Part shown: positions 6,018-23,735 of the stretch, one piece after another | How the letters are laid out: each line of letters begins with the position of its first letter | How positions within the stretch are numbered: the first letter of the stretch is position 1 | IMG/VR virus record: IMGVR_UViG_3300010392_000273 | Coordinates: 1-23,735 of that record | Source: a virus | Direction: 5' to 3' (one strand) | DNA length: 23,735 bases | Translations under genes and position numbers: made by a program | Notes under the pieces: model-generated | Database searches by the model: none | What the model was told of the DNA's origin: nothing | What the model saw: the letters and a program-made list of their open reading frames with translations, nothing else

Positions 6018-8018
6018 TTATACAAGGGTCTCAGTCGGTACTATCATAGAAGGGTTAGGTACACCCGGTACTGGCTCTATAGGCGCGCCTTCAGCTGTGG
6101 GCGGCTGCAATGGCTCCGCTACGGGGTTTTCTTCGGCAACCTCTTCTAGTAGCTGCTTGATTATCTCAAGCTCTAGCGCCACATGTGCGTTAAGATTTGC
6201 TTTATTTTGATAACTTAAAGTATCTACATCCGGTAGGTCAGAATCTACCTCCGTCCCGCGAATATATTCCTTGAATGTAGAAATGTAATTAGTAAAGCGC
6301 TCAACATCATCTGTTTTAAATACCTCTGGCATCTCGCCACTTAATATAATTTCAATATTTCTTATAGCGTCTACATCATAGGCATCACCCTGCGGAGAGC
6401 CATATAGTAGCTGAGGAGCATTCTTTTCAATAAACGCATTTCTGGCTCGCTGCTCTGCATCGCCATACTCAAGGTCTCGTAACATATCAAGCGTAGATAT
6501 GCCGCCTTGCCCCCATAAGTCAACCGACTGCGCTTTCATAGTCGATTTATCCTGCGGCGTTGTGCTGCCCTCCTCTACAAGAACAGTTATTCTCTTTCCT
6601 ACTAGTTCATCACGAGAAATATATGAATCTTCCTCCATAGATGAAAGTTCCATAGAATCACCCTCCGCCTTGTGTATCTGAATAGGTCGTGGCTCGTCAT
6701 AATATACATACATCATTTGTATATAGGCCGCATATAATTTTTGTGATAGCTTCTCAATACGTCGTGGGAGTATTTCGAGCCTATTAACATCGGAACCCTT
6801 TAGCATGGCGCGCCCTGTTGCGGTTTCTTTTGCTTCTCTCTCACCTCTAGTTGTTGCATGAGTGCCCATAATGTTATCCACCTCCGCTTTAGAATCGCCC
6901 ATATCGTTATATACGCTAGGGTCTAGTCCTCTCCCGTACTCAATACCAATAGCACCAGTAACTGTATCGGCGTGCGTAAGATATATTTTATCTTTAGGGT
7001 CATTAGAAACATTATCAGCGTCCTCTTTGCTTATCTTATTGCCGGCAAATATCATTTTTCCATTAGCAAGATCGGCATTTTGGCTAAATTGCCCCTTTCT
7101 CTTATTGATGTTCTTTTGCAATCCTATTACTTGTTCGATAAGGCAAGTATCATCAACAAGCGAGTCGCCAAATGAAAACCAGTTCAAGAATATATATGGT
7201 ATTCTAGGAGATTTATACAAGTTATATGTTGGCGCCACCTTGGATTTCTTAGCACCCTCTTTAACCTGAAACGGTTCATAATTAAAATGAGGATTTCGCT
7301 CTTTATGTAATAGTATATTTTTCCACAAACAAGCATAGAAATCACTCTCCCAATACTCGTCATAGATAACCTCTGTATCATCATGAGCTGATGTAGTAGA
7401 AGCAGCGTCTATCTCGTCTACCTTCTCTGGGAATCGCGCCTTCAGCTCGCCCAGTGTAGTTACTACACGCTCTATGACAGCAGGCAGCTCCTTTTCATTT
7501 GAGGCACTATGAGGGAATAATAGAGAGGCTGTCGGTACTAGCTTTATAGCAATCTCATCCTCATCGTCATCGTAATAATACTTAAAGGCAACATATTTAG
7601 CACATGCCAATACTCTTACTCCCTCCTCTAGTCTAGGTTGCATATCCAGATCTATTTTCCATGCGTCTATGAGTTTACGCGATATTTTCTCTTGCAGGCG
7701 CAGCGCTCCTTTATCTAGCGGTCTAATAGAGACATTAGGTATAGGGGTACGACGCGTAACAATAGGGACAATAGTCTCTATTGATTGAAAAATTTTATTA
7801 ACGACCGTGTATTCTTCTCCCTCTAGTATTTCTGATTCATCTACTTGATTGCCTGCCCACCATTCACGGTTTTTTCGTGCTGCCTCTATAAGCTGGCTAT
7901 GATCTTTCCTCCATAGCTTTCCACGTTTAGTAATGCGTTCAGCTAATTCTTTGTCAGACAGTTCAAACTCTATAGCTTCAAGGCCTTCGCCCTCTTCTTG
8001 TTCGTAATTCCTATTCAT
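6018..8018 (-). CDS. Portal protein (podovirus/P22-like type)
   Basis: This 666-residue protein forms the dodecameric DNA gate at one capsid vertex. Supporting features are its place between terminase and scaffold genes, its length (P22-like portals are around 700 residues), and a typical start with an acidic helix. The YTVVNKIFQSIETIVPIVTR segment near 69-88 is followed by a charged block. Further on, a GTHATTRGEREAKETATGRA segment sits in the stem/crown region, followed by a long helix (PRRIEKLSQKLYAAYIQMMYV). The C-terminal third is helical and ends in a proline-rich tail (EPLQPPTAEGAPIEPVPGVP). The start ATG overlaps the terminase stop (TAATG), so the two are translationally coupled. Confidence 0.9.
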   Translation of the reverse strand: MNRNYEQEEGEGLEAIEFELSDKELAERITKRGKLWRKDHSQLIEAARKNREWWAGNQVDESEILEGEEYTVVNKIFQSIETIVPIVTRRTPIPNVSIRPLDKGALRLQEKISRKLIDAWKIDLDMQPRLEEGVRVLACAKYVAFKYYYDDDEDEIAIKLVPTASLLFPHSASNEKELPAVIERVVTTLGELKARFPEKVDEIDAASTTSAHDDTEVIYDEYWESDFYACLWKNILLHKERNPHFNYEPFQVKEGAKKSKVAPTYNLYKSPRIPYIFLNWFSFGDSLVDDTCLIEQVIGLQKNINKRKGQFSQNADLANGKMIFAGNKISKEDADNVSNDPKDKIYLTHADTVTGAIGIEYGRGLDPSVYNDMGDSKAEVDNIMGTHATTRGEREAKETATGRAMLKGSDVNRLEILPRRIEKLSQKLYAAYIQMMYVYYDEPRPIQIHKAEGDSMELSSMEEDSYISRDELVGKRITVLVEEGSTTPQDKSTMKAQSVDLWGQGGISTLDMLRDLEYGDAEQRARNAFIEKNAPQLLYGSPQGDAYDVDAIRNIEIILSGEMPEVFKTDDVERFTNYISTFKEYIRGTEVDSDLPDVDTLSYQNKANLNAHVALELEIIKQLLEEVAEENPVAEPLQPPTAEGAPIEPVPGVPNPSMIVPTETLV

Positions 8019-9673
8019 TACTTTCTCTTTTTTAATGTATCTAATATATCTGCAGAAATATTACCGCCTTTAGAATCTAGAAATAGTTTATCATTATTCT
8101 GCTTTTTCTTCATGGACATTTTTTCAGCGCCAATAGTGCCTCTATTCAAAGCAGTATAGAAATACAATGTGGCGTGCGCTAGGTGATCCGCATCGGTTCT
8201 TACCCATTCAAAGCGCTGATTTCCCTCGCTGTCTTCTTTTACCACCCTTACTAAATTAGTCATATGTTCAACATACTCAGAAATATCATTTATATTCATA
8301 TGGATAGGAAATTGCCCCGTTACTACTTTATCTACTAATTCATCAAATGATTCGTTTCTCTGTATAAGAACAGAATACTTCTTTTTGGCTATAAACTTAG
8401 CCAGCTCCGTTTGATCGCTTGTGGGTTTATAGAACGCCCTCCAAAACCTGCCTTTATATTTGTCTGCAAATTCTTTGGGCTTTTGCTGCTCTGGTAGACC
8501 GTCACACACTACAGTCGCATTATACATTTTCATGAGACGTTCAATTTCAGACCATTTCTCGGTTTTGCCTATAGCAAATATCCCTTGTTTATTGCCTATA
8601 ACATACCATTTCACCCTCCCTTGGTCTACGCCCATTACATTATCCTCTAGTAAATTTACATCCATACTAAGGTTTTGTGATATGTGCTCTCTAGTTATCT
8701 TCACGTCAGAACCAATGTATGGGCGGCCCATGACAAAGTTTTGAAAGTATGAAGTAGGCGTTTTAGTATCTTCTTGGATTTCAAGTAGACTAGATACACT
8801 ATGACGAACATACATCAATTGATTCATCCAATAACCACGCACCTCACTTCTAGATTTATACTTCGGAACCCATTGTCCATGCATGCGGTCTGTATCAGAG
8901 ATGCTTTTAGCACACTTGCCGCAAATAATTAACTTTTTATCTGGATCAATATAGGTATGTAGCGCCTTCTTGTGTTCATGTCTATCTAGTCGTATCCAGT
9001 CTAAATATTGCTTATGCCTACAGTGGGAACACGTAATAAAATAATACATCTGGTCAGAGCGTTGAAAATAACCATCCGCCCCCATTTTGGGATATGTTGG
9101 GTTATCTAATAACCAACGCCCTTTATATAGCGAATTATCAAGCCTAGAGCGCATCTGTGATAAGATAAATTGATCTGATTTAGATGCCTCATCGTGAATA
9201 TTAATATCCGAGGTAAGAGATGTACCCTTTGATGTCTCTTCCCTATCCCCTCTAGATTTTGGGTTGTATGCCCCCTTGAAAAATATAGTCCTAGCATCTT
9301 TACCCGTGCCTACCTGCTTTTGATACATACCACCCGTGATTTGACTATAGATATGCTGATTATTCTCTATTAGTTTATTCACCTTAGACGGTACAACATC
9401 TTTGATGAATTCGTCTGTAGGAAAGGTATATAGCACATTCAGTTTAAGATGTTGAGCCATATAAAAAGCCTTGAGTAGCACGGCCTCTGTTCCGCCTATT
9501 TGCGAGCACTTATTCCAGCCTTGTTGTGGGTGAAAATCGCAGAGTGGTTGCAATAGAAAAGCATGCTCGCTCCATTCAAATGGCACACCCTTAGAAGTAA
9601 GTATGGGAGAGCCTATCTCCTCTAGTTTATCAAGAATTTGTAATACTCTCGTATCAACAGGAGGAATTGTCAT
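8018..9673 (-). CDS. terL: Terminase large subunit (GpA/lambda-like)
   Basis: This 551-residue protein is the DNA-packaging ATPase and nuclease. It has a deviant Walker A of the lambda GpA kind, KCSQIGGTE (55-63), with lysine at the front and no GKT. Walker B with catalytic acid is NIHDEAS (158-164; D161, E162). Residues 215-254 hold a zinc ribbon, CSHC...CGKC (C215, C218, C251, C254), typical of GpA. The RNase H-like nuclease has candidate metal ligands D350 (MGVDQG), D391 (VVCDG) and D494/D496-H497 (DADHLAHA). Its ATG overlaps the small subunit stop (TAATG). The C-terminus is lysine-rich, as expected for the portal-binding tail. Confidence 0.95.
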   Translation of the reverse strand: MTIPPVDTRVLQILDKLEEIGSPILTSKGVPFEWSEHAFLLQPLCDFHPQQGWNKCSQIGGTEAVLLKAFYMAQHLKLNVLYTFPTDEFIKDVVPSKVNKLIENNQHIYSQITGGMYQKQVGTGKDARTIFFKGAYNPKSRGDREETSKGTSLTSDINIHDEASKSDQFILSQMRSRLDNSLYKGRWLLDNPTYPKMGADGYFQRSDQMYYFITCSHCRHKQYLDWIRLDRHEHKKALHTYIDPDKKLIICGKCAKSISDTDRMHGQWVPKYKSRSEVRGYWMNQLMYVRHSVSSLLEIQEDTKTPTSYFQNFVMGRPYIGSDVKITREHISQNLSMDVNLLEDNVMGVDQGRVKWYVIGNKQGIFAIGKTEKWSEIERLMKMYNATVVCDGLPEQQKPKEFADKYKGRFWRAFYKPTSDQTELAKFIAKKKYSVLIQRNESFDELVDKVVTGQFPIHMNINDISEYVEHMTNLVRVVKEDSEGNQRFEWVRTDADHLAHATLYFYTALNRGTIGAEKMSMKKKQNNDKLFLDSKGGNISADILDTLKKRK

Positions 9674-10086
9674 TACTCATTATCCCTTGTAGTAAGATAC
9701 TCAGGATTAGGGTCGCCGCCCACGCTAATAGAAATACCTGAAGGATACTCAATTTGTCTCTTTTCCGTTTCCATTAGTCCGTGATTTGCCTTGAGTTGGA
9801 ATATTGCCATACTAGAATTTACCTTGTTGTGAAGTCCTAGTTTTTGTAGCATTGCCTTTTGTTTGGTTTTTAATCTTTTTATAGCTCCGAAAAATTTCCT
9901 GTGTTCTTTCCCCCAGTTTGTGATAGTATCCTCGTCAACGCCTATTTCAGAGGCGAATTCCTCCAAATATGGGATATTAGCCCCCTTAGTAAATGCATCA
10001 AGCTCATTTACGAGATTAGCGCGATATTTAGTAGGTCTTCCCACTTTATTTGTTTTTTTAGGTGACTTCTTCTGTTTTTTGCTCAT
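9673..10086 (-). CDS. terS: Terminase small subunit
   Basis: This 137-residue protein probably recognises the packaging site and recruits the large subunit. A basic start (KKQKKSPKKTNKVGRPTKY) precedes a helix-turn-helix region, IPYLEEFASEIGVDEDTITNW (58 onward). This is followed by a helical oligomerisation part and the NSSMAIFQLKANHGLMETEK phrase, a common ending of small terminases. It overlaps the end of the ParB-methyltransferase gene by 29 bp and is coupled to terL. Confidence 0.85.
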   Translation of the reverse strand: MSKKQKKSPKKTNKVGRPTKYRANLVNELDAFTKGANIPYLEEFASEIGVDEDTITNWGKEHRKFFGAIKRLKTKQKAMLQKLGLHNKVNSSMAIFQLKANHGLMETEKRQIEYPSGISISVGGDPNPEYLTTRDNE

Positions 10087-11523: not shown

Positions 11524-12072
11524 TTATTTATCTTTTTTATTTGCGAACGGATCGCCGTAATGCTTTACATAATCTGGATTAGTATACCACTCACGCCTAG
11601 ATTTATCGTAATGCCTACTAGGTTGTAACAGGTCTATTCCTTTTTGACCGATATACTCATTTCGTATTCTCTCCACCTGTCCCTGTGATATGAGCTTTGC
11701 ACCGTATTTATGAAATACTGGGGGCATATATCTATATCTCACCTTTTTACCACAGCGCCAACACCAGACACGATCGTTACCAGCACCACAATGAGGACAA
11801 ATAGTATCACCCCTAGGCACATTAGCTCTGTACTCCCGTGCTCTGCGTATTACCTCCTCCTCTTTAATATACTCTCTCTGGTCGTCAATATGCGCTATAA
11901 CCGCATCAGGCAGGCCGCGCTTTATAAATGCCCATCTCATCTTCTCTTTATATGCCCGTATCTGATCTAATACCCTATTTACAAAGACAAACCGCATGCG
12001 CAGCTCCTTAAGGTTCACAACAAATTCGACAACAAAGACTTTATTATGTACGAGAGTTCTGATTTCTTGCAT
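11524..12072 (-). CDS. Double zinc-ribbon protein, function unknown
   Basis: This 182-residue protein has a basic helical N-terminal half. Residues near 112-130 contain CPHCGAGNDRVWCWRCGKK, two CxxC pairs that form a zinc ribbon. A basic, aromatic C-terminal part ends in lysines. Such ribbons bind nucleic acids or act as adaptors to RNA polymerase and nucleases. The ATG start overlaps the upstream gene by 29 bp. A later ATG at residue 26 (11997) would remove the overlap and cannot be excluded. I do not recognise a named family. Confidence 0.75.
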   Translation of the reverse strand: MQEIRTLVHNKVFVVEFVVNLKELRMRFVFVNRVLDQIRAYKEKMRWAFIKRGLPDAVIAHIDDQREYIKEEEVIRRAREYRANVPRGDTICPHCGAGNDRVWCWRCGKKVRYRYMPPVFHKYGAKLISQGQVERIRNEYIGQKGIDLLQPSRHYDKSRREWYTNPDYVKHYGDPFANKKDK

Positions 12073-12672: not shown

Positions 12673-12797
12673 ACGTTGCTACGTTTTCTATATATATCTA
12701 AATTACGGATTATTTTTTCAATAAATGAATAGAACAGCCCAAATAGTACGATAAATGGGAAGCAGCAAAGGAGTGTAAATAGTACAAGAAATTCCAT
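12669..12797 (-). CDS. 42-residue single-pass membrane peptide, probably leaderless
   Basis: The frame is ATG at 12797 to TGA at 12669. Residues 2-26 are hydrophobic (FLVLFTLLCCFPFIVLFGLF) and the end is basic (EKIIRNLDIYRKRSNV). It is the first gene after a near-consensus promoter whose predicted start is the A of this ATG. It ends in an ATGA overlap with the HTH gene. Those two constraints make it a real gene despite its size. Possible roles are membrane signalling, exclusion or translational leader function. The two adjacent cysteines are notable. No homologue is recognised. Confidence 0.78.
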   Translation of the reverse strand: MEFLVLFTLLCCFPFIVLFGLFYSFIEKIIRNLDIYRKRSNV

Positions 12798-12802
12798 ATG
12801 AC

Positions 12803-12819
12803 AACTATATACTATAGTT
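12803..12819. promoter_or_regulatory. Palindromic operator over the -10 element
   Basis: AACTATA-TAC-TATAGTT is a perfect 7-bp inverted repeat with a 3-base centre. It covers the -10 box and the adjoining spacer of the promoter at 12804-12832. An XRE-type regulator is encoded just upstream, so this is a likely operator. Binding there would block RNA polymerase. Confidence 0.65.
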
Positions 12820-12832
12820 TACAGCTTGTCAA
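12804..12832 (-). promoter_or_regulatory. Strong sigma70-type promoter, leaderless
   Basis: In transcript sense, TTGACA (12832-12827) is followed by 17 bases and then TATAGT (12809-12804). Six bases further on is the ATG at 12797, so the expected +1 is the A of that ATG. This is the best promoter in the window. It starts the operon that runs into the methyltransferase and probably the packaging and head genes. Confidence 0.8.
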
Positions 12833-12848
12833 CAGACTAAATAAGCAA

Positions 12849-12882
12849 AGTGAGCGCCGTATGGACACTTACGGTACTCACT
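12849..12882 (-). terminator. Terminator-like hairpin after the XRE regulator
   Basis: In transcript sense, AGTGAG-TA-CCGT, a 10-base loop, ACGG-CG-CTCACT, then TTGCTTATTT. The stem has 10 pairs with a 2x2 internal loop. Flanking AAATAA/TTATTT can extend it. It ends the XRE gene transcript 50-90 bp after its stop and lies directly before the next promoter. Confidence 0.6.
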
Positions 12883-12936
12883 AATTTATTTGCATTTACC
12901 CATATTTCGTAATACCTACTCTATAAAGTAAAAGAT

Positions 12937-16069: not shown

Positions 16070-16699
16070 TCAACTATTATTTATAGCCGCCATTCTTTCT
16101 CTTTCCTTAACAATCTCTTTTGCTGTTTTCATCTGATCTAATAAGCTTATCCTTCTCTTGTACATTTCAGGGCTACGCCTAAGAAAGCCACGAACAGCAG
16201 CGATATAATCTTCATACTGTTTTTTGTTTGCCTCACAGTAGTCTATAACAGCATGTATTGCCTTTAACGCGTCATACTTTTTAAACTCCTCTTCCTTCTC
16301 TATCTTCTTTGCAATTTCTTTCTTGTTTGTTTTTAAATACTCTAAATCTTTTTTTACATCTACATCTACTTCTACATCTACCTCTACATCTACAGGTTTT
16401 TTTAAACCCACTGGGTTTTGTTGGGTTTTTTCATCTTCAATTACCTTACGGGGTCTACCTCCCCTTGTTCCGTTTTTACGCGAAATATTTGCTTTTTCTT
16501 CCCATTTCTTTCTATCTATATCAAGTTGAATTTTTATAAAGTTGAATGCCGTTCTAATGGGGGACGATTTAGGAGGCTCTATATCTTCAATTGCGTAATC
16601 CATAAGAGCCTGTAGCAGTTGACCCTTTTCAGAATCACTCATGTCTTTTAATGCCTCATTATACGAATGATAAAAGACAAAAGACTTTTTTTTACTCAT
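16070..16699 (-). CDS. DUF6291-type phage protein
   Basis: This 209-residue protein begins SFVFYHSYNEALKDMSDSEK, the hallmark start of DUF6291 proteins, with AFNFIKIQLDIDRKKWEEKA and GTRGGRPRK following, as usual for the family. These genes generally lie near phage replication genes (DnaC or initiator-like), but the function is unproven and no helicase loader follows here. Residues 103-115 are a V-D-V-E-V-D repeat encoded by a hexamer microsatellite, a variable linker. The C-terminal helical part (about 130-209) is basic. It is the first gene after the 16700-16925 intergenic region, so it probably starts the early transcript. No Shine-Dalgarno sequence is seen. Confidence 0.8.
   Translation of the reverse strand: MSKKKSFVFYHSYNEALKDMSDSEKGQLLQALMDYAIEDIEPPKSSPIRTAFNFIKIQLDIDRKKWEEKANISRKNGTRGGRPRKVIEDEKTQQNPVGLKKPVDVEVDVEVDVDVKKDLEYLKTNKKEIAKKIEKEEEFKKYDALKAIHAVIDYCEANKKQYEDYIAAVRGFLRRSPEMYKRRISLLDQMKTAKEIVKERERMAAINNS
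16355..16394. repeat. Imperfect hexamer microsatellite inside the DUF6291 gene
   Basis: On the plus strand TACATC-type units (TACATC, TACTTC, TACCTC) repeat about six and two-thirds times, giving the VDVEVD linker of the protein. The unit is a multiple of three, so length change keeps the frame. Confidence 0.85.
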
Positions 16700-16773
16700 A
16701 CTTGGGCAATAATAAGTAATACGATATACAAGGCGTAATATATGACGAATGTAGTAAGATTCTGTTACAAGGT

Positions 16774-16787
16774 ATGTTTTGAAACAT
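16774..16787. promoter_or_regulatory. 14-bp palindrome, possible operator
   Basis: ATGTTT-TG-AAACAT is a perfect 6-bp inverted repeat with a 2-base centre. It sits between the interleaved repeats and the first early gene. No convincing promoter hexamers could be set beside it, so an operator role is tentative. Confidence 0.35.
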
Positions 16788-16862
16788 GAGTTAGACCTAA
16801 ATAATAAATTACATAAATGGGGGTATTTTTCAAGGTCTAACTCGAAGAAGCTACCCCCATTT
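16788..16862 (-). ncRNA. Interleaved inverted repeats with pseudoknot topology / terminator
   Basis: Two perfect 11-bp inverted repeats interlock. GAGTTAGACCT (16788-16798) pairs with 16833-16843, and AAATGGGGGTA (16815-16825) pairs with 16852-16862. In RNA from the minus strand the connecting loops are 8, 7 and 16 nt, compatible with an H-type pseudoknot, or with two alternative hairpins. The second stem, followed by ATTTATGTAATTTATTATTT, can also act as the terminator of the lysis transcript. It lies between the endolysin and the first early gene. Confidence 0.6.
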
Positions 16863-16878
16863 CCATAATCTAACTAAG

Positions 16879-16908
16879 TGGAGCCGCCCAGCATGTGAAC
16901 CGGCTCCA
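16879..16908 (-). terminator. GC-rich hairpin after the endolysin gene
   Basis: TGGAGCCG and CGGCTCCA form a perfect 8-bp stem with a 14-base loop, 18 bp beyond the endolysin stop. The tail (CTTAGTTAG in transcript sense) is not U-rich, so it may be an mRNA 3'-end stabiliser rather than a full terminator. Confidence 0.5.
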
Positions 16909-16925
16909 AATCACTCTACCAGAAG

Positions 16926-17915
16926 TTACTGGGATTGTACAGGGCCGGCTATATCTGTTAGATCCACCCTGCCATCCTTATTTTTATCGTAATTTGTTAC
17001 TAAATATTGCACAATAGAAGCACCGACCGTGACTGCTAAACCAGCTACAACAGAAGTAAAGCCATCTTGTGTATCTTGTAAATTATCAGCAAAGTAAATT
17101 ACTGAGGTAATGCCAGCAAATAGCCAGGCAGGCCATGTATATTTGAAAAGTTGTCTAAGATAGTTACTTTTAAATGTAGTATCTACCCATGAATGCCATC
17201 GTGCTTTTAGTCCTCGCGCCTTTAATTCCTCCCCAATACCAGTAACCAAGATATCGCCGTTTATACTAGTTTTAAATAACTCCCGTTCATTTTGTATCTG
17301 TTCTAATAGGGCTTGTTGTCTTGCTTCACTTTCTTCTTTTAGCGCGATAAGTTCTTCATCATATAGTGCTCGCAGCTCGTTTTGTTCTTTTTGCAGGTTC
17401 TCTAGTTTTTCCTCATGTATAGACCGCAAGTCTTGAATCTGTATATTTAGATTTTTAATCTTCTCCTGTTTTTGTTTTAATAAGTTACTCACCGTAGGAA
17501 ATGTAATATATAAAGTAGGGTTTACATACTTCTTACCCTTCATAAGGGCAAAATGTAGGTGGTTGCCTGTTGCATACCCTGTCTTGCCGCTAAACCCTAT
17601 GACTTGCCCAGAAACCACCTTTGTACCTTTCCGTAAACCAGGGTGAATGCTTTTCAAATGCCAATATTTCGAGACAAACCCGTCTTTATGCTTAATAATT
17701 ACATAATTAGCAGGGGTTTTTGTGGTTGGTGTTTTAGCTACTCTACCCTTTCTTGATATGCCTATAATGACACCATTATCAATACTTCTAACTCTAAAAA
17801 TACCGCCAAAATCAACCCCATAATGAAAGTCTGATACTTGTTTGCCATTAACTATTATGCTCCTCTTTCCGTATTTAGACGTAATTTTCTTAGTGCCAAA
17901 AAAAGGACTATTCAT
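16926..17915 (-). CDS. M23 peptidase endolysin fused to membrane segments and a calcium-loop motif
   Basis: The ATG at 17915 gives 329 residues. AAGAGA lies 4 bases before it. A TTG at 17939 would extend it by 8. Residues 10-135 form an M23 (LytM-like) metallopeptidase that cleaves peptidoglycan peptides: H31 and D35 in HYGVD, H86 in YWHL, H119 and H121 in NHLHF. Residues 145-215 are a glutamate- and leucine-rich coiled coil. Two hydrophobic segments follow (about 258-276 and 287-306). The end, DKNKDGRVDLTD (310-321), matches a 12-residue EF-hand/dockerin calcium loop. The coiled coil and membrane part suggest self-anchoring or oligomeric lysis at the membrane, unlike plain soluble endolysins. 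It overlaps the holin-like gene by 8 bp. Confidence 0.9.
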   Translation of the reverse strand: MNSPFFGTKKITSKYGKRSIIVNGKQVSDFHYGVDFGGIFRVRSIDNGVIIGISRKGRVAKTPTTKTPANYVIIKHKDGFVSKYWHLKSIHPGLRKGTKVVSGQVIGFSGKTGYATGNHLHFALMKGKKYVNPTLYITFPTVSNLLKQKQEKIKNLNIQIQDLRSIHEEKLENLQKEQNELRALYDEELIALKEESEARQQALLEQIQNERELFKTSINGDILVTGIGEELKARGLKARWHSWVDTTFKSNYLRQLFKYTWPAWLFAGITSVIYFADNLQDTQDGFTSVVAGLAVTVGASIVQYLVTNYDKNKDGRVDLTDIAGPVQSQ

Positions 17916-18177
17916 TGATTCTCTTAGTAATATAGTCAAACTTTTCTAATAGATTCTCCAGTGCATTAGTATTGTTCTCAAGTGCGCTCTGTACGCCTGA
18001 TGTTACCTCTGTAATCTGCCTTGTCATATGAATTAATGTATTATAAGATTCAACTATTTGAATCTCACGCTCCCTAATTTGTGACTGTGAATCTTTCCGA
18101 TAAAACCATAAAATTATTAGTACAACTCCCGCAGTGCCTAAGTCTAGAATATTAGCTAATATAGGTATTACGTCCAT
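17908..18177 (-). CDS. Holin-like small membrane protein (BhlA/UviB style)
   Basis: This 89-residue protein has a short N-terminal outside segment, one hydrophobic helix (about 5-27, ILANILDLGTAGVVLIILWF), a basic YRKDS anchor, and a long coiled-coil-like cytoplasmic tail with many Q, E and N. This is the build of the BhlA/UviB class of holin-like proteins. It immediately precedes the endolysin with overlap, and its ATG lies 2 bp after the ejection protein stop. A holin or endolysin-release role is well supported by context. Proof of pore formation is lacking. Confidence 0.8.
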   Translation of the reverse strand: MDVIPILANILDLGTAGVVLIILWFYRKDSQSQIREREIQIVESYNTLIHMTRQITEVTSGVQSALENNTNALENLLEKFDYITKRINE

Positions 18178-22663: not shown

Positions 22664-23735
22664 ACTCTGCCGATTTGTTCTTCTTTTATTAGTTCTACAT
22701 TTGCCCGGATACCTAGTAGCGTTGGCATTGTAACCGGGTTTATTGTTGTTGTTGTAAAAACCACGCGAAATTCTATTTCAAAGAAGCGAGTGAACTTAGA
22801 TACACCAGTTGCGGCATCTGTTGGCGCTGCAAATGACTTATAAATTATCCCCTGATCGTTTGTATCAGTAATCGGGTCAACTGTACCAAGTGAAGTCCAA
22901 GCACTGCCCTCCATTCTGTAAAACAATTCAAGCTTTTCACCTTCAGTTCCAGCATATGAAAGAGCATCAAACCGAAGCGACACCCCTGTTAAGTCTTTTT
23001 GATAGTGTTCAAGATCACCTCCCCCCGTCTCTCGTAAAAAATCTATTTTCGCGTAGCGTACCTTATTAGTTGTATCAATATTATCGACCCCATATACCGT
23101 GCGTTCAGCATGAAAAGTAGACTCGTTACTTGCAGAAATTGTCCCGCTAGCATCGCCCATCTCATCAGTCGCGGTAGTTCCTGAGCCTTCGTCACACTTA
23201 TACCACCTTACCGGGTTATATGTTATGACTTCATCTTTGTATACACTATCTGCCTCAGCTGCTGAAAGACCCGTACTAAAAAGCTTAATATCACTTACAT
23301 AGCCGTCATATGCCTTTGTTAGACCTCCCCAATTGCCAATATTTAAATCATTGCTGTTGCTAGTCTCCGCAGTCCCAACAGGGGTATCAGTCTCGTTTAC
23401 AGTGACTGAAACGCCGTTTACATAAAATACCGGATCGTTAGTAGTAGCACCGTTATCGTAGACTATAGCAAAGTGCGTCCATGAGCCAATCGGAATGTTC
23501 ACGTCAGTATCCCAAATGCCATTTGTGCTACTAAATCGCTGAATAAACCGAAGCGCAATATTTCCGCCAGATTCCCCAGTTGTTACAATACGCCAATCAC
23601 CCTCCTTGTTAAGGATATAGCCGTCGTTGCCCTCCCCATCAGATGAAGGATTTAACCAAAAAGAAACAGAACCACCACTAGCCATTAAAGACGTAATAGC
23701 AGCACTATTGGCAGCCTCAATAACATCATCAACAC
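22660..23735 (-). CDS. LamG-domain virion protein, C-terminal part (cut by window end)
   Basis: This continues the gene at 1-790 and ends at TGA 22660. Roughly residues 225-365 of the joined protein form a LamG/concanavalin A-like jelly-roll: SGGSVSFWLNP, GSWTHFAIVYDNGA, PVFYVNGVSV, GYVSDIKLFSTGLSAAEAD. These are the standard strands of the Laminin_G_3 group, which binds glycans. A second beta-rich domain follows (about 400-584). Upstream codons run through the window edge without a stop, so the ATG at 23685 is internal. A receptor or surface-glycan adhesin is the likely role. Confidence 0.88.
   Translation of the reverse strand, partial: VDDVIEAANSAAITSLMASGGSVSFWLNPSSDGEGNDGYILNKEGDWRIVTTGESGGNIALRFIQRFSSTNGIWDTDVNIPIGSWTHFAIVYDNGATTNDPVFYVNGVSVTVNETDTPVGTAETSNSNDLNIGNWGGLTKAYDGYVSDIKLFSTGLSAAEADSVYKDEVITYNPVRWYKCDEGSGTTATDEMGDASGTISASNESTFHAERTVYGVDNIDTTNKVRYAKIDFLRETGGGDLEHYQKDLTGVSLRFDALSYAGTEGEKLELFYRMEGSAWTSLGTVDPITDTNDQGIIYKSFAAPTDAATGVSKFTRFFEIEFRVVFTTTTINPVTMPTLLGIRANVELIKEEQIGRV
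23625..23735. repeat. Terminal overlap repeat, right copy
   Basis: Exact copy of 1-111. The LamG frame continues through it without change. It marks circularity of the assembly and is not an extra gene copy. Confidence 0.95.

Follow-up and report, generated by a model that had tools for sequence, protein, structure and literature searches.

Two interlocked inverted repeats at the lysis/DUF6291 junction of a virus fragment: a candidate H-type pseudoknot in minus-strand mRNA

Two perfect 11-bp inverted repeats interlock in a gap between genes of an IMG/VR virus fragment of 23,735 bases, the whole of which was analysed and is here called the window. Such an arrangement raises the question whether the four arms have come together by chance and, if they have not, whether they act as RNA or as DNA and on which step of gene expression. 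An earlier note on this DNA had offered a range of answers, from a pseudoknot or a two-state switch to a terminator, an origin or a packaging site. Therefore, the arms, the predicted folds, the gene context and the interlocked repeats of related phages were analysed here, and the possible functions were ranked.

Arms of the repeat, their chance level and their gene context

Direct reading of the sequence gave exactly the arm order A-B-A′-B′ and the coordinates of the earlier note, with four perfect 11-nt arms that read on the plus strand GAGTTAGACCT (A, 16788-16798), AAATGGGGGTA (B, 16815-16825), AGGTCTAACTC (A′, 16833-16843) and TACCCCCATTT (B′, 16852-16862). The loops of 8, 7 and 16 nt were also given correctly, since the layout in minus-strand RNA is B′-8-A′-7-B-16-A. 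On this strand arm B′ (exact sequence AAAUGGGGGUA, 16852-16862) is transcribed first as the 5′ arm of stem 1 and is followed by arm A′ (GAGUUAGACCU, 16833-16843), the 5′ arm of stem 2, which lies inside the loop of hairpin B. The third arm to be transcribed is B (UACCCCCAUUU, 16815-16825), the 3′ arm of stem 1, and the last is A (AGGUCUAACUC, 16788-16798), the 3′ arm of stem 2, which abuts an AUG.

Perfect inverted repeats of at least 11 bp with arms at most 60 nt apart were found twice in the whole window, and these two are A/A′ and B/B′; block-wise dinucleotide shuffles contained 0.31 per window. None of 300 composition-preserving shuffles of the window held an interlocked pair of 11 and 11 bp. 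With hairpin B fixed, the probability of a loop match of at least 11 nt in a dinucleotide-shuffled 60-nt flank on either side was p ~0.0006, and none of ~19,700 real flanks taken from elsewhere in the window matched the loop by 11 nt. The chance of A/A′ remains below 0.01 when about 10 hairpins that a reader could have spotted are allowed for. The shuffles and the p value for A/A′ given hairpin B thus bear out the judgement that the interlocking is very unlikely by chance.

The element is located in a non-coding gap of 226 nt, the second largest among the 35 gene gaps (the largest, of 264 nt and free of assigned genes, is at 12673-12936). Upstream lies an endolysin gene of the M23-peptidase type (Peptidase_M23; 16926-17939, minus strand), and downstream lies the gene of a DUF6291 protein (PF19808; 16070-16699, minus strand), the first after the junction. 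The position at a boundary is hereby confirmed, with the M23 endolysin on one side and the gene that opens the next group on the other; every assigned gene of the window is on the minus strand. The region from the element to DUF6291 (16700-16787) has 69% A+T. It is spanned by a possible leader ORF of 31 codons (MFQNIPCNRILLHSSYITPCISYYLLLPKYE; 16692-16787, minus strand), whose AUG abuts arm A at 16787 and whose stop codon UAA (16694-16692) overlaps the DUF6291 start (ATG 16699-16697). This arrangement of AUG, ORF and stop overlap was spotted post hoc and arises in ~0.8% of cases by shuffling; no homologue of the 31-codon ORF was found. Arm A contains AGGU, a possible weak ribosome-binding sequence shortly 5′ of the AUG. 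A Shine-Dalgarno-like sequence within 20 nt upstream was present for only 8 of the 36 window genes, suggesting that the host uses such sites rarely, so that ribosome binding at AGGU may not matter in this host. No sigma-70-like promoter was detected between the element and the DUF6291 start by a promoter scan, in which the real site count was about equal to that in shuffles; the nearest minus-strand site of this kind (16961-16934) is weak and lies upstream of the element.

Predicted folds of the junction RNA

The B arms are the core of a longer imperfect hairpin that was absent from the earlier note (16805-16872, minus strand). Its 21-nt arms are 81% complementary, and the extended hairpin B consists of the 11-bp core, an 8-bp outer helix and a 6-bp inner helix. 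The predicted energy of these 68 nt is −27.1 kcal/mol on the minus strand (z = −6.6 against shuffles) and −22.1 kcal/mol on the plus strand (z = −5.4). The minus-strand fold is the stronger one because G-U pairs exist only in minus-strand RNA, and this strand asymmetry favours an RNA over a DNA function. Two further features of the junction had likewise gone without mention. The first is an adjacent GC-rich hairpin (UGGAGCCG...CGGCUCCA; 16879-16908, minus strand; −16.5 kcal/mol, z = −3.3), which begins 17 nt past the endolysin stop and before arm B′ and is devoid of a U-tract. The second is TCTAACT, the core of arm A, which is present a third time at 16869-16875 (plus strand) and as AGUUAGA in the minus-strand RNA could be a nested alternative partner for arm A and compete with the pseudoknot.

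In the nested ensemble the pairing probability of stem 1 was ~0.9-1.0 and that of A/A′ was ~0, the latter because the method excludes pseudoknots and cannot form them. The energy of the two-stem pseudoknot was estimated at about −31.6 kcal/mol by a rough stacking sum with a penalty of 9.6 kcal/mol, as compared with −27.7 kcal/mol for the best nested fold of the 85 nt. The uncertainty of the energy model covers this difference, and therefore both folds are possible. Judged by their geometry, the full hairpin B and the full pseudoknot are probably mutually exclusive, because the outer 8 bp of hairpin B take half of the 16-nt pseudoknot loop.

Interlocked repeats in related phages

No homologue of the element was found in any database searched. 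A blastn search with the region and the surrounding 5 kb against 50,697 phage records returned nothing, and IMG/VR pattern searches with the endolysin, TerL, capsid and an 813-aa virion protein yielded no relative of the query. The IMG/VR pattern search with the portal protein returned 27 distant loci. The nearest relatives, L031 and L032, share 50-52% in TerL, 50% in the capsid and 35% in the portal (portal and two-member TerL alignments); the L032 contig, read to both ends, stops before the lysis/early junction. The broader IMG/VR group includes a TM7 phage and a Manatee Spring phage, whose portal and capsid share 22-32%, and a genome scan returned two MAG contigs only. In the fetched loci the hairpin B repeat did not occur beyond the window's own copy. 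L026 shares 19 nt with the end of the gap; this was taken to be a chance match, because it falls within a coding start of L026 and is clear of the element.

Long inverted repeats of other kinds were observed among these phages. A perfect one of 34 bp breaks the TerL frame of L032 (L102:8020-8109, corresponding to 23020-23109 of the L032 contig); the closely similar TerL gene of L031 is intact, and the repeat of L032 could be a genuine insertion or have arisen in assembly. Another perfect inverted repeat, of 22 bp, lies in the TM7 phage (L030:14117-14173) in a gap between oppositely oriented gene groups.

A census of 1.29 Mb from ~90 related contigs gave four interlocked pairs with summed arms of at least 20, as compared with a shuffle mean of 0.22, and none of 120 shuffles reached four; with summed arms of at least 22 there were three, against 0.017 in shuffles. 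As the cut-off was chosen after the window element had been seen, these counts are suggestive. The four pairs are those of the window (11+11), L027:3952-4010 (9+13), L067:3867-3924 (14+8) and L017:5962-6031 (11+9). Side-by-side hairpin pairs of equal strength also numbered four, i.e. they were no commoner than interlocked ones. The last arm of the L017 pair holds an in-frame ATG at 6029, which is probably the portal start codon. The 14+8 pair is embedded in a long stretch of L067 (3730-4041) that is imperfectly inverted on itself, at 72% over 330 nt. In 0.73 Mb of bacterial control DNA, inverted repeats of at least 11 bp were more frequent per base (98, as compared with 52 in 1.26 Mb of phage DNA), and the summed arms of interlocked pairs did not exceed 18. 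This result agrees with the excess in the phage group and is not significant alone, the control being too small as proof because ~2.3 pairs would be expected at the phage rate and zero has a chance of ~0.1. Lambda alone had no interlocked pair.

When all loci were compared with one another for interlocked pairs preserved by double changes, two elements emerged. One of them is shared by L092 (2876-2936) and L060 (4402-4461), where a TATAAT-like box on the minus strand lies just upstream of it and a small ORF, followed by an ATPase gene, begins 17 nt downstream. In its second stem GTCCTTGTG/CACAAGGAC is replaced by GCTATTGCG/CGCAATAGC through four double changes with none broken, and its first stem has one broken pair; these are two sequences only, and an equally good result was reached by 30 of 500 shuffles. 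A scan of IMG/VR for this element gave its own two contigs and 9 chance matches with a loop-tail match of at most 7 nt, and phage records gave no match. The other element is a short H-type pseudoknot (L008:6032-6080, L009:10116-10164, L014 ~11928-11974, L018 ~9652-9696, L021:9049-9094 and L028:3696-3741), found downstream of the capsid gene in the interval that separates two structural genes. In L009, L014, L018 and L028 both of its stems are kept with four double-changed pairs and none broken. Stem S1 has 6 bp and S2 has 7 bp, the linker is UA, AAGUG precedes the last arm, and the single-stranded parts are conserved. This element is possibly a new RNA family; neither it nor the element of L092 and L060 had an Rfam match at gathering scores. 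Sliding the partners destroyed the covariation signal in both sets. Downstream of the structure, the covarying elements and L027 have an A/U-rich stretch and a start codon 17 to ~30 nt on. The paired changes show that interlocked repeats in this group of phages can be RNA folds under selection, without indicating that the analogues are homologous to the window element. The earlier proposal of a pseudoknot or two-state switch is plausible and gains support from these analogues, apart from its terminator part, which found no support in canonical form.

Possible functions of the element

The function placed first, as a tentative choice, is that of a cis-acting H-type pseudoknot with two 11-bp stems on the minus-strand mRNA, controlling translation at the lysis/DUF6291 junction. 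In its favour are the non-random arms and their fold on the minus strand, the genes on either side, the place of the AUG and its ORF, and the recurrence and covariation of the analogues; the varied contexts in which the analogues sit count against it. If the region is read as one RNA, as we infer, hairpin B would fold first, and the tail with arm A, once transcribed, would pair with arm A′ in the hairpin loop. The pseudoknot so formed would hide the initiation region (off), and its opening would expose this region (on), because arm A bears the weak ribosome-binding sequence beside an AUG whose ORF overlaps the DUF6291 start. The 31-codon ORF would then be translated, and the effect would be one on translation. 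Since arm A abuts this AUG, translational control like that of phage T4 gene 32 is the first choice.

In the T4 gene 32 leader, 67 nt separate a pseudoknot from the start codon, and the initiation region that comes after it is A+U-rich; a 2010 review described this as possibly the only viral pseudoknot used in translational autoregulation (PMC3014915). Similarly to the gene 32 leaders of T4, T2 and RB69, arms that would allow a pseudoknot lie here in the presumed phage mRNA, 88 nt upstream of the DUF6291 start, and a presumably unstructured A+U-rich stretch precedes the start. The two differ in that no sequence relation was shown and that a short ORF stands between the window element and DUF6291. 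Furthermore, DUF6291 is without known RNA binding, unlike the gene 32 product, which binds single-stranded nucleic acid and its own leader, and the window element is without a known protein ligand. The stems of the gene 32 pseudoknot are shorter than 11 bp, whereas those of the window are 11 bp each.

Similarities to other phage-related pseudoknots were also considered. Short pseudoknots that phages produce or that are directed against them are known from ToxI and pseudo-ToxI, and the ToxI type III antitoxin consists of tandem 36-nt pseudoknot units beside the toxN gene (PMC3475682). A ToxI-like antitoxin was rejected, as the window element is a single copy and the tested flanking genes gave no ToxN-like Pfam or PHROG match. 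STAXI, which occurs in tandem in two or three copies, resembles the window element in being a possible pseudoknot RNA close to genes of DNA-handling proteins (PMC2864571); the window had no match at Rfam thresholds, which sets it apart provided that STAXI is in Rfam.

Less probable, though still possible enough to rank second, is a 3′-end element of the late (lysis) transcript, in which the GC-rich hairpin and hairpin B would slow or stop the polymerase imperfectly and the loop-tail pseudoknot would, in readthrough RNA, shield the 3′ end from exonucleases. The structure starts shortly past the endolysin stop, at a gene-group boundary on one strand where a terminator is expected, and downstream of hairpin B come an A/U-rich spacer (AUGUAAUUUAUUAUUU) and arm A; the order of hairpin, T-rich spacer and loop-complementary arm recurs in L017 and L027. 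Intrinsic terminators with large loops likewise close an operon with a stable hairpin; hairpin B differs from them by its lack of a U-tract, its 26-nt loop and the ability of this loop to pair with the tail. The claim that one of the hairpins is a terminator did not hold: neither has a proper U-tract on either strand, the 16-nt A/U spacer is an imperfect one at best, and the terminator scan was empty across the gap. A canonical intrinsic (Rho-independent) terminator was therefore rejected, as scan and direct reading found no GC stem with short loop and U run in the gap. Termination would moreover have to fall beyond the hairpin, because arm A must be transcribed, and a classical attenuator fits the topology poorly, since hairpin B and its tail are already made by the time arm A is transcribed.

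It is unlikely, and third in rank, that only hairpin B is functional and that the A/A′ match is due to chance or is the residue of a template switch. Template switching can create short perfect inverted repeats, and hairpin B dominates the nested ensemble, in which A/A′ has almost no probability. Against this stand the small chance of A/A′ given hairpin B and the excess of interlocked pairs within the phage group, two of which covary.

Sites acting in DNA were ranked fourth and are improbable: A, A′ and the third TCTAACT would be bound by a regulator that controls the following gene group, while B/B′ would be a second site pair or an origin or packaging signal. Three TCTAACT cores lie within 87 bp, the window contains 9 where 4.5 are expected, and the region between element and gene is A+T-rich. 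The strand asymmetry of the fold energy, with G-U pairs only in the minus-strand RNA, speaks against DNA sites, as do the scattering of the other TCTAACT copies in genes, the lack of a common sequence among the analogues in relatives and a GC skew without a switch. The suggestion of an origin failed on the same skew, which is negative throughout with no sign change here, and with only 2-3 TCTAACT cores a skew-defined replication origin with iterons was rejected. For a packaging site no positive evidence was obtained, and the terminase genes are ~7 kb away.

A known structured RNA, i.e. a riboswitch, ribozyme, tRNA-like element or other Rfam family, is very improbable: small riboswitches and ribozymes commonly have H-type pseudoknots, but Rfam gave no family in the window at gathering scores and only two chance-level eukaryotic matches up to E 5, and no tRNA or tmRNA was found.

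With translational control by a pseudoknot as the preferred reading of the window element, a wider possibility, which is itself doubtful, is that this phage group, a distant relation of a TM7 (Saccharibacteria) phage and a spring-water phage, makes use of a recurrent and undescribed class of long-stem loop-tail pseudoknots. Placed in operon leaders, they would control translation in a setting with few Shine-Dalgarno sites, and the window element would be one of several independent examples. Few phages have documented regulatory RNA pseudoknots, and the interlocked elements described here are short and testable. The excess of interlocked repeats, together with the compensatory changes in two of them, would point to control by RNA structure as a general device in a poorly known group of phages.
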